Source of the DNA: a virus
Strand: one strand, 5' to 3'
Length of the DNA: 33,332 bases
Virus record (IMG/VR): IMGVR_UViG_3300014050_000085
Coordinates: 1-33,332 of that record
The position numbers and the translations under genes were made by a program. Numbering within the stretch: the first letter of the stretch is position 1; every line of letters begins with the position of its first letter. The notes under the pieces are model-generated. The model did no database searches. It worked only from the letters and a program-made list of their open reading frames with translations, and was not told where the DNA came from. Positions 24,273 through 27,603 of the stretch are shown piece by piece.

Positions 24273-24413
24273 ATGCCAATCCGTAAATGCGCCTCACAGA
24301 ATTGCTTTAACAGAAATGTAGCAGCAGAAGTTCGTTCTGGGAAACCAATTAAGCAAGCCGTAGCTATTGCATATAGTGTTAAACGCAAAGCAAAATCTAA
24401 AAAGAAAAAATAA
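24273..24413 (+). CDS. 46-aa lysine-rich small phage protein
   Basis: A short reading frame begins MPIRKCASQNCFNRN one base after the preceding stop and ends KRKAKSKKKK, with its TAA overlapping the next ATG (TAATG). It contains SGKPIKQAVAIAYSVKRKAK, matching a recurrent small phage motif of the type GK-x-x-KQAVAIA-x-S. Two Cys residues (C6, C11) are near the start. The tight junctions on both sides and this motif argue that it is a real gene. Nucleic-acid binding is plausible from the charge. Confidence 0.65.
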   Translation: MPIRKCASQNCFNRNVAAEVRSGKPIKQAVAIAYSVKRKAKSKKKK

Positions 24414-26764
24414 TGGATAAATCAAGTCTCAAGAATCCGTCAGAAGTGACGGCATTGTTCATCGACCACGGGCTTTTCATCTCGCAGGCATTGCGTTTGG
24501 CTCAGACATTCAAGAAGGTTTATTGCTATACGCCTTGGGAAACTGCATTCCCAAAGATGACAAGCATGATTGGTTATGGCTATGATGAGCTTGAGCTTGT
24601 TGATTCTATCTTTGGGCCACATTTTGACGAAATCGACATTTTTATATTTCCTGACATCAATTCTGGCCCGTTGCAACAATACTTGGTTGACCAAGGAAAG
24701 ATTGTTTGGGGATGCAGGCTTGGAGAATGCTTGGAGCTTGATCGTGAAGGAATGAAAGACATTTTGAAGGCACTTGATTTGCCAGTCGGGAAGTTTGAAC
24801 ACATCAAAGGCATGGATAACCTTCGCTCTTACTTGAAAGAGAAAAAGAATGTCTATGTGAAGATCAACAAGTGGCGTGGAACCTTCGAGACATTCAAGAG
24901 CGAGAACTACAATCAAGTTGAGCCAAAGCTGGATGAGGTTGAACATAAGCTGGGGCCATTGAAGCATATTATTGAGTTCACAGTTGAAGATCAGCTTGAA
25001 GAACCGAATATGTTTGAAGGAGGAACAGATGGATTCGTTATTGATGGCGAATACCCATCTCAGCTTATGTCTGGAATTGAAGTGAAAGACTTGGCATATG
25101 TTGGAGTATTTACGAAATATGCGGAGATTCCAGAGCCTATTCGCCGCTTCAATGATCGAATGAAGAATGTCTTCAAGGCATACAACTATCGAGGATGGAT
25201 GTCCACGGAGGTTCGCATTGGAAAAGATCACAACCCATACATGATCGATGCGTGTTTTTCTGAAGACACAGAAGTTCTAACAAAAAATGGATGGAAGAGG
25301 TTTCCAGAAACAACAAGCGAAGATGTTTTTGCAACAATGAACCTTGAGTCTGGCGATCTTGAATATCAGAAAGCCACAAGATATATTGAATATCAATATC
25401 AGGGTGACATGGTTCGCATTTCAAACAGAAAGAAGACCATTGATTGTTTGGTGACCCCGGATCACGACATTGTTAGAACAGACAGAAACAAGAAAACAGT
25501 TTTTAAACAAAAGGCCGATTCCCTTACAGATAAAGGATTCATTCCGCGCATTGCCAAGTATTCCGGCGGGGACGAATCTGATTTCATATTGCCAGCATAT
25601 AGCTACGAGTGGGATTTTATTGGTCAATATGGACACCATATTTGCAAAAAAGAAGTTAATTTGCCTGAAATAAAAATTCCGCTCGCTGACTGGGCTTCTT
25701 TTATGGGGTGGTATCTTTCAGAAGGAAGCACATCTGGAAGTGGAGTAACACAAATCTCACAAGAAAAATTTGTTGAGCAGCTTCAAAAAGACCTTGATCC
25801 ATTGCCATTTGATTTTAAATATACAGGCAAGGGATTTAGGTGCTGCAATACGCAATTAACATCTTATCTTAAAAAATATGGATTGTGTAATGAGAAGCGG
25901 GTTCCTCAATATATTAGAAATTCATCTCCTTTCGTAATTCAAAAATTCCTTTCCTCATTTTTCTTTGGAGACGGAAGCGCGGGTGACGCACAAGGAAGGG
26001 AACGATATTTTACAACTTCAGAGGTAATGGCTGGAGACTTGCAAGAAATGCTGTTTAAGGTTGGAAAGGTTGCAAATATTCACAGAAAGAAAATCTCTGG
26101 AACAAAAATGAGTGTTGGTTTGGGAAAGACATATGTTCGCAACCACGACATTTTTGTTGTTGAGGCTGTTGAAAAATCTGATTTTTGGTTTGAAACAGGA
26201 ATCAGAAAGGACAAATACATTACAAATGTTCCTTATGACGGAATGGTTTACTGTGTTTCCGTTCCAAATGGAACGCTTGTTGTTAGGCGCAATGGAAAGT
26301 GCTTCATTTCTGGAAACTGCACGCGCAGCCCATCGCCGCCCAACGAGTTATGGCAAGAACTTTACAGCAACTTTGCTGACATTGTATGGTATGGGGCGAA
26401 TGGCATTGTTGTTGATCCAGAGCCTACAGCAAAATATGGAGCGGAAGTTTTAATCCACAGTTCATGGGCATCTGGAAATTGGCAACCCGTGGATATTGAT
26501 CCTGCAATTCGCCAATGGGTGAAGCTACGGAATGCAATGAAGATCAATGGACGTGAATACATCTCACCAATGGGCGATGGATTGCCTGAGATTGGCGCAG
26601 TAATTGGTCTGAGTGACAAGTCGATTGAAGATGCTATTGAAGTCGCAATCAAGCATTGTGATGGCGTTTCTGGCTATTATCTCGAAATGCCAACTGCTGC
26701 CACTGACAAAGCGATTGCGGCGATTGAAAAAATGGATAAGCTCGGATTGAACTATTTTACTTAG
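24413..26764 (+). CDS. ATP-grasp ligase-like enzyme containing an intein
   Basis: This 783-aa precursor should give a 428-aa spliced protein. The N-terminal extein (1-280) resembles ATP-grasp ligases of the PurD/carbamoyl-phosphate-synthase type: FPDINSGPLQQYLVDQGKIV, then LELDREGMKDILKALDLPVG, an ATP-binding strand NVYVKINKWRGTFETF (146-161) and the active-site region YRGWMSTEVRI to PYMIDA. After splicing the motif becomes MIDA-CTRSPSPPNELW, the counterpart of the metal-binding E-x-N-x-R motif, with Asp and Cys in place of Glu and Asn. The C-terminal extein (636-783) completes the fold. The reaction is unknown: it would join a carboxylate to an amine with ATP. The gene overlaps its upstream neighbour by one base. 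Confidence 0.75.
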   Translation: MDKSSLKNPSEVTALFIDHGLFISQALRLAQTFKKVYCYTPWETAFPKMTSMIGYGYDELELVDSIFGPHFDEIDIFIFPDINSGPLQQYLVDQGKIVWGCRLGECLELDREGMKDILKALDLPVGKFEHIKGMDNLRSYLKEKKNVYVKINKWRGTFETFKSENYNQVEPKLDEVEHKLGPLKHIIEFTVEDQLEEPNMFEGGTDGFVIDGEYPSQLMSGIEVKDLAYVGVFTKYAEIPEPIRRFNDRMKNVFKAYNYRGWMSTEVRIGKDHNPYMIDACFSEDTEVLTKNGWKRFPETTSEDVFATMNLESGDLEYQKATRYIEYQYQGDMVRISNRKKTIDCLVTPDHDIVRTDRNKKTVFKQKADSLTDKGFIPRIAKYSGGDESDFILPAYSYEWDFIGQYGHHICKKEVNLPEIKIPLADWASFMGWYLSEGSTSGSGVTQISQEKFVEQLQKDLDPLPFDFKYTGKGFRCCNTQLTSYLKKYGLCNEKRVPQYIRNSSPFVIQKFLSSFFFGDGSAGDAQGRERYFTTSEVMAGDLQEMLFKVGKVANIHRKKISGTKMSVGLGKTYVRNHDIFVVEAVEKSDFWFETGIRKDKYITNVPYDGMVYCVSVPNGTLVVRRNGKCFISGNCTRSPSPPNELWQELYSNFADIVWYGANGIVVDPEPTAKYGAEVLIHSSWASGNWQPVDIDPAIRQWVKLRNAMKINGREYISPMGDGLPEIGAVIGLSDKSIEDAIEVAIKHCDGVSGYYLEMPTAATDKAIAAIEKMDKLGLNYFT
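25253..26317 (+). mobile_element. Intein with LAGLIDADG-type homing endonuclease (in frame)
   Basis: Residues 281-635 of the precursor (355 aa). Block A starts at Cys281 (CFSEDTEVLTKNGWKRF). Block B is LVTPDHDIVRT (346-356) with the conserved Thr and His. Two dodecapeptide-like motifs of a homing endonuclease follow, FMGWYLSEGS (430-439) and FLSSFFFGDGSAGD (512-525), each with an acidic residue at the catalytic position. Block F is YDGMVYCVSVPNGT. The end is RRNGKCFISGN, with Asn635 and then Cys636 as the +1 nucleophile. The residue before the final Asn is Gly, not the usual His; I recall this from some phage inteins. Both splice residues and the endonuclease motifs look intact. Confidence 0.92.
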
Positions 26765-26868: not shown

Positions 26869-26911
26869 GCCATTCGACAAAGAGAAATCTGATAAAAAAC
26901 CAAAGAAATGA
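26774..26911 (+). CDS. 45-aa membrane peptide with basic tail
   Basis: This is MIIGLLLFLLFLLLLEVDFV followed by a Lys-rich tail (KEKSDKKPKK). One N-terminal transmembrane helix with a positive C-terminus would place the tail in the cytoplasm. Its TGA (26909-26911) overlaps the next ATG (26908) in the ATGA form seen at other real junctions in this phage, which favours this frame over the one at 26767. No family is recognised. Confidence 0.5.
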   Translation: MIIGLLLFLLFLLLLEVDFVLQRRYGGMTCFKPFDKEKSDKKPKK

Positions 26912-27603
26912 GATTTGAAGCGAAGTCGGTTGATCCGTCATTGATGAGGTATGTCACAAGCGGAGATTGGGAAATTATAGGAGATTTGGTGAGCATTACA
27001 GTCGCAGATTATGGGATGAAAGATGAAAATGCTTTTTTGGTTGCTCTCCATGAACTCGTCGAAAGTTATCTATGCTTGAAAGATGGCGTATCTGACGAAT
27101 CTGTGACAAAGTTTGACATTGAAAATCCAGACCTTCCAGAGCCAGGCGATTCTCCAGATGCTCCATATCACAAACAGCATGCCGTTGCAACATTTGTTGA
27201 AAGGGTCGTCTGCGGTGCTCTCGGTATTAACTGGGACGAGCATAACAAGTGGGTTCAGAGGGCCGGAGACGAAGTTGAGCGAATGCAAGGAGAAACTCAA
27301 TCTCCAATTTTGAGGGAAGGCCCTAGACTATGGGCCGAGTTGCATCTTTTCTCACTTCGCAATCGTAACTGCGAGGATCGTGCATTCGTTAAAAATTGGT
27401 TTGACAATTGGGTAAAATCAATCCCATGGAATGGTTGTCCGTGCCAACAACATTTTGAAGAGTATTGCAAGCAATTTCCACCTAACTTCAATGACCTTTG
27501 GAATTGGTCTGTTCAACTGCACAACGATGTCAACAAGAGAATAGGAAGAAAGGTTTTGAGTATTGAGGAAGCGGAAGCTTTATGGAGAAAAAGACTACTA
27601 TAA
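26908..27603 (+). CDS. HELVE-domain protein fused to an Erv/ALR-like sulfhydryl oxidase domain
   Basis: This 231-aa protein has two parts. Residues 1 to about 115 contain LHELVESYLCLKDGV (H48, E49, E52) and DAPYHKQHAVATFVERV (H88, H91), which together could bind a metal. From about 138 on, the text follows Erv1/ALR FAD-linked thiol oxidases: LWAELHLFSLR, SIPWNGCPCQQHFEEYCKQF, then PPNFNDLWNWSVQLHNDVNK with the HNxVN FAD-side motif, and RIGRKVLSIEEAEALW. The redox motif reads C177-P-C179, a CxC rather than the usual CxxC; Cys187 is nearby. It would oxidise thiols to disulfides in the cytoplasm. Family placement is by pattern reading and needs a profile search. Confidence 0.7.
   Translation: MRFEAKSVDPSLMRYVTSGDWEIIGDLVSITVADYGMKDENAFLVALHELVESYLCLKDGVSDESVTKFDIENPDLPEPGDSPDAPYHKQHAVATFVERVVCGALGINWDEHNKWVQRAGDEVERMQGETQSPILREGPRLWAELHLFSLRNRNCEDRAFVKNWFDNWVKSIPWNGCPCQQHFEEYCKQFPPNFNDLWNWSVQLHNDVNKRIGRKVLSIEEAEALWRKRLL

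Follow-up and report, generated by a model that had tools for sequence, protein, structure and literature searches.

A class-1-type LAGLIDADG intein at the metal-binding motif of a phage PurD-like ATP-grasp gene

Results

An intein inside a phage ATP-grasp gene

We analyse a viral record from IMG/VR (33,332 bases, referred to throughout as the window) and find that a mobile LAGLIDADG intein of class-1 type has very probably invaded a phage ATP-grasp gene resembling PurD, the GAR synthetase, at its metal-binding motif. The open reading frame named in the original prediction, made from the sequence alone, is present as described there, and the viral source of the record bears out the phage origin. 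The features are collected in Table 1. In the mechanism that we propose, Cys281 and Cys636 would carry out the N-S shift and the transesterification after translation, Asn635 would cyclise, and the exteins would be joined as MIDA-CTRSPSPP, yielding an active enzyme of 428 aa in which the +1 residue, Cys636 of the precursor, is position 281. Because the metal-binding strand is interrupted until splicing occurs, the precursor should be inactive, and the endonuclease would spread the intein by cutting intein-free alleles in related phages. Splicing, endonuclease activity and precursor inactivity are what we infer from the sequence. While the mechanism is already known, the intein is apparently an unrecorded allele in an unrecorded host family and at an unrecorded insertion site, and in this respect host family and site enlarge the intein catalogue.

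Table 1. Positions of the interrupted gene, its parts and the gene downstream, in window coordinates.
Feature	Position	Strand	Description	Evidence
Precursor ORF	24413..26764	+	783 aa, without internal stop; PurD-like ATP-grasp enzyme split by intein	
N-extein	24413..25252	+	Residues 1-280, ends ...PYMIDA	Continuous alignment with intein-free alleles
Intein	25253..26317	+	Residues 281-635, 355 aa (Cys1 ... Gly-Asn); Hint splicing domain and LAGLIDADG homing endonuclease	Boundaries from intein-free alleles
Block B motif of intein	25454..25465	+	TPDH (TxxH)	Read in translation
First LAGLIDADG-type motif	25700..25726	+	FMGWYLSEG, acidic residue Glu	Translation, carrier alignment
Second LAGLIDADG-type motif	25946..25975	+	FLSSFFFGDG, acidic residue Asp	PF14528 match, carrier alignment
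C-extein	26318..26764	+	Residues 636-783 and stop, starts CTRSPSPPNELWQ	Intein-free alleles, PurD profile alignment
Downstream gene	26908..27603	+	231 aa; conserved N-terminal HExxE domain and C-terminal Erv/ALR-like domain	Motif and profile matches

Empty sites fix the insertion point

Searching viral contigs with the spliced 428-aa query returns nine intein-free alleles, of which the nearest (L002) is 91% identical to the window protein and the others follow at 84-88% (L003-L006), 73% (L007-L009) and 43% (L010). All nine run unbroken over residues 280 and 636, reading MIDG/CMRSPSPP where the window reads MIDA/CTRSPSPP (a slash marks the insertion point here and below); continuity of homologs across this junction was the test that the original prediction had named for itself. 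The insertion point is the codon boundary that precedes the third residue of a conserved D-x-[C/T]-x-R motif. A wider scan gives 181 relatives, the best 80 of which were retained; the 85 retrieved sequences (a few fetched twice) span the enzyme as a single uninterrupted piece, and about 80 intein-free relatives on viral contigs, 35-91% identical, form one family. Searches with the spliced host find no homolog among annotated phages and none among plasmids, and in the bacterial genome collection they find one contig, in a Verrucomicrobia MAG, which is possibly viral. Co-conversion was considered since the window residues MIDACTRSPSPP match those of the empty alleles L019 and L020; because the nucleotides differ, we make no such claim.

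Domains and splicing motifs of the intein

Residues 281-635, searched alone against Pfam, match PF14528 (LAGLIDADG_3) at 7.9e-6, which exceeds the gathering score, and PF14890 (Intein_splicing) at 1.5e-5, which is under it, while the alignment of TIGR01445 (intein_Nterm) starts at residue 281. The insert thus has the Hint and LAGLIDADG matches whose absence the original prediction had offered as counter-evidence. Across about residues 280-637, essentially the intein alone, the precursor is matched by many annotated phage inteins, among them those in ribonucleotide reductase, terminase and thymidylate synthase, at only about 23-30% identity.

The claim that all intein hallmarks are present holds for Cys281, TPDH, the two LAGLIDADG-like motifs, Asn635 and Cys636, but not for block G, whose penultimate residue is Gly and not His. 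Every carrier of a related intein (see below) has Cys at intein position 1 and a terminal Asn followed by Cys at +1 (N/C). The window and L014 share TPDH as their TxxH motif, whereas L012 and L013 have TPEH and L098 has TPNH; the T, P and H are conserved across the four carriers aligned. From Cys1, TPDH, the terminal Asn and the +1 Cys we assign the intein to the class-1 type, and it carries a LAGLIDADG endonuclease domain as well. In both LAGLIDADG motifs the acidic residue is retained in every carrier, which makes endonuclease activity plausible. The usual penultimate His is missing throughout (the window and L014 have Gly, L012 and L013 Cys, L098 Ser), leaving the efficiency of splicing uncertain. 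The penultimate residue varies in mycobacteriophage class-1 inteins too, Gly at this position does not keep a phage intein from splicing, and the Bethlehem RDF intein has Gly there just as the window intein does (Kelley and colleagues, PMC5050341).

With the phage class-1 LAGLIDADG inteins, whether in ribonucleotide reductase, terminase and thymidylate synthase or in mycobacteriophages (PMC5050341), the window intein shares Cys1, TxxH, two LAGLIDADG motifs, the C-terminal Asn, the +1 Cys and an insertion at the active centre; it differs in that low identity and in its host protein, a PurD-like ATP-grasp enzyme. Its position supports the general preference of inteins for codons of the active site.

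Carriers are scattered over the host tree

With the intein as the query we find four further carriers, L012 and L013 (about 61%, pairwise), L014 (50%) and L098 (50%), all of which interrupt the same enzyme. Including the window there are five carriers in four host lineages, four of them at the identical site: the insertions of L012, L013 and L098 fall on the window's codon boundary (D-F/C-A-R, D-P/C-M-R). In the remaining lineage (L014:4155-6503) the related intein sits one codon later (D-M-T/C-R-Q), after the codon supplying the +1 Cys, and empty relatives such as L058 (D-A-T-C-R) have Cys there too. This one-codon shift among related inteins lends itself to studying how insertion sites move.

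We placed 85 host sequences (80 empty and the 5 carriers) on a maximum-likelihood tree, where the carriers require 4 state changes, at least 3 of them forced by well-supported branches; the placement of L014 and L098 is unsure since their terminal branches are long. All carrier pairs show higher similarity in the intein than in the extein, e.g. 0.50 against 0.37 for the window and L014. Since the carriers are scattered, share a site and are closer in intein than in extein in every pair, the pattern fits homing between phages at one gene site. For the L012/L013 inteins we obtain dN 0.013 and dS 0.254, a dN/dS of about 0.05, and for the window/L002 exteins dN 0.057 and dS 1.24, again a dN/dS of about 0.05, values that are approximate with dS near saturation. 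As judged by these ratios, both the inteins of L012/L013 and the host enzyme are under purifying selection, so that the interrupted enzyme is still constrained.

The patchy presence of the intein could also reflect loss from one old insertion, in which case it would be a vertically inherited element of the gene family, lost from most lineages and no longer mobile. All four carrier lineages do have related inteins at the same or an adjacent codon, and parsimony on the host tree cannot tell gains from losses. We nevertheless consider this history unlikely, because it sits poorly with inteins that are more alike than their exteins in every pair, with endonuclease acidic residues kept in all carriers, and with an empty site in the window's nearest relative.

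The host enzyme is PurD-like in fold

The spliced host, scanned against Pfam and PHROG, gives no convincing family and only a weak match to Dodecin. Structure prediction is more informative. An AlphaFold2 model of the intein-free L002 protein, built on a 54-sequence alignment, reaches a mean pLDDT of 94.1 and a pTM of 0.92 (with 7 sequences an earlier AlphaFold model had reached a poor pLDDT of 61.6). Against the PDB, this model has 632 matches at E <= 0.001, and the best among the matches listed are all ATP-grasp enzymes; the 15 best are all GAR synthetase (PurD), with a best E of 1.8e-18, and the TM-scores to PurD structures are 0.64-0.73 over the full length at 12-15% identity. Independently, the family sequence profile reaches PurD chains at E 1.1e-5 to 1e-3. 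The host predicted to be an ATP-grasp enzyme is thereby upheld, and by its modelled structure it is clearly PurD-like, a statement about fold that falls short of showing a true PurD.

In PurD, the Asn of the motif E-x-N-x-R binds metal, and the enzyme's signature is R-[LF]-G-D-P-E. The family's IDaCaR aligns with E-x-N-x-R, and the profile alignment to three PurD structures pairs D279 with the acidic residue, position 281 with the Asn and R283 with the Arg. The intein accordingly comes directly before the position that this alignment equates with the metal-binding Asn, which agrees with the predicted insertion inside the metal-binding motif. Within the family the acidic residue of the motif (Asp) is invariant, and the Asn position is occupied by Cys, Thr or Met, so that the metal chemistry usual for ATP-grasp enzymes may be changed. 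The PurD signature is absent, with R-x-x-[ST]-P-P in its place in nearly all members.

These features bear on whether the host could be a true GAR synthetase that boosts purine synthesis by the phage. PurD is the top full-length structural match (2yw2, 3lp8, 5vev and 1vkz share the whole fold, and D279, R283 and their flanks match E-x-N-x-R), and phosphoribosylamine-glycine ligase genes are reported to be virus-enriched in the ocean (PMC11360552). We regard a true PurD as rather improbable all the same: the signature is replaced (with few variants) and so is the metal Asn in the members examined, TM-scores are only about 0.7 at the low identity given above, and the neighbours are virion genes, none of them for purine synthesis. 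The host enzyme probably uses ATP to couple an amine with a carboxylate. The peptide or amine ligation raised in the original prediction is plausible; its nearest relatives by structure are amine ligases of the PurD type.

The host is thus a member of an environmental phage enzyme family of at least 80 members that is PurD-like by structure and is matched by models of neither Pfam nor PHROG. This family, in which the metal ligand is replaced and a decarboxylase-like gene can lie next door (below), is a more open question than the intein. In the open-access literature we find no paper pairing inteins with phosphoribosylamine ligases, an absence there being no proof of novelty, and of the open-access papers naming both ATP-grasp and intein none appears, in the portions available, to describe such an insertion.

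Gene neighbourhood

In 42 of the 85 loci the ATP-grasp gene has a small gene of one family, the HExxE family, nearby, mostly directly adjoining it. Its N-terminal domain, with the motif HExxE...D...EPGD..PY..QH..A..xE, has no convincing match in Pfam. Many copies, that of the window among them, add a C-terminal Erv/ALR-like domain, while at other loci the HExxE domain stands alone. The profile of the added domain matches the ASFV oxidase 3gwl at 3.3e-13; the CxxC redox pair expected next to FAD is absent, and every copy with this domain has CPC, then xxH.

At ten loci (L070, L071, L074, L080, L082-L085, L090 and L093) there is an AdoMet-decarboxylase-like gene of about 120 aa (PF02675 at 3.5e-4, under the gathering score), which in most of them is immediately upstream of the ATP-grasp gene and in several overlaps its start. 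The Glu-Ser processing site is retained in 9 of the 10. These loci sit in a different part of the tree from the HExxE loci, and L070 has the HExxE gene and the AdoMet-decarboxylase-like gene in a row. The decarboxylase-like gene upstream in some relatives suggests amine ligation, and from this gene context amine ligation by the host enzyme is a reasonable guess. It also points to a phage pathway, of metabolism or of modification, that can be tested.

Combining these observations, we put forward tentatively, as a reading somewhat less probable than its alternatives taken together, an undescribed system for amine ligation in phages: a PurD-like ligase with Cys or Thr at the metal Asn would act with an HExxE partner or with an amine-supplying AdoMet-decarboxylase-like one, and the active-site codon would be the shared homing target of an intein family. 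LUZ24-like phages likewise encode an ATP-grasp ligase with small partner genes (PMC3890496), as at the window locus; there the partners are Amidoligase_2 and GATase and the ATP-grasp protein has 291 aa, whereas here the partners are HExxE or AdoMet-decarboxylase-like proteins and the enzyme is PurD-like. Phage ATP-grasp/amidoligase gene sets such as these, with the amidoligase survey of Iyer et al. 2009 as cited by other papers, are among the nearest comparison classes.

The Erv/ALR-like domain is also behind the suggestion that a neighbouring thiol oxidase controls the intein. The domain is real, as a C-terminal extra of the window's downstream gene, but intein and oxidase do not co-occur, and the redox link is for this reason unsupported. 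That the intein is kept as a regulatory switch, with splicing under redox control tuned by the adjacent oxidase-like domain, is very improbable: Cys1 and the +1 Cys are redox-sensitive in principle, the next gene encodes the domain, and stress-responsive splicing is known for M. smegmatis DnaB inteins (PMC6195587), yet the domain adjoins many intein-free alleles (L002, L006, L007 and others), is not found beside L012, L013, L014 or L098 in the flanks examined (short for L014 and L098), and homing alone predicts that several lineages gain or keep an endonuclease-bearing intein.

The predicted placement of the host gene among virion genes is confirmed, with virion and polyvalent-protein genes adjoining it. 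Terminase and portal genes are near the enzyme in some loci, and large upstream proteins carry polyvalent-protein domains, e.g. ART-PolyVal and PBECR5. Two of these proteins, very large and encoded 5' of the enzyme (L048:162-7637 and L012:357-4013, with ART-PolyVal and the PBECR5 nuclease), are likely virion-borne. Elsewhere in the window, positions 176-2389 encode a tail fibre protein with collagen repeats (Pfam Collagen, 4e-22).
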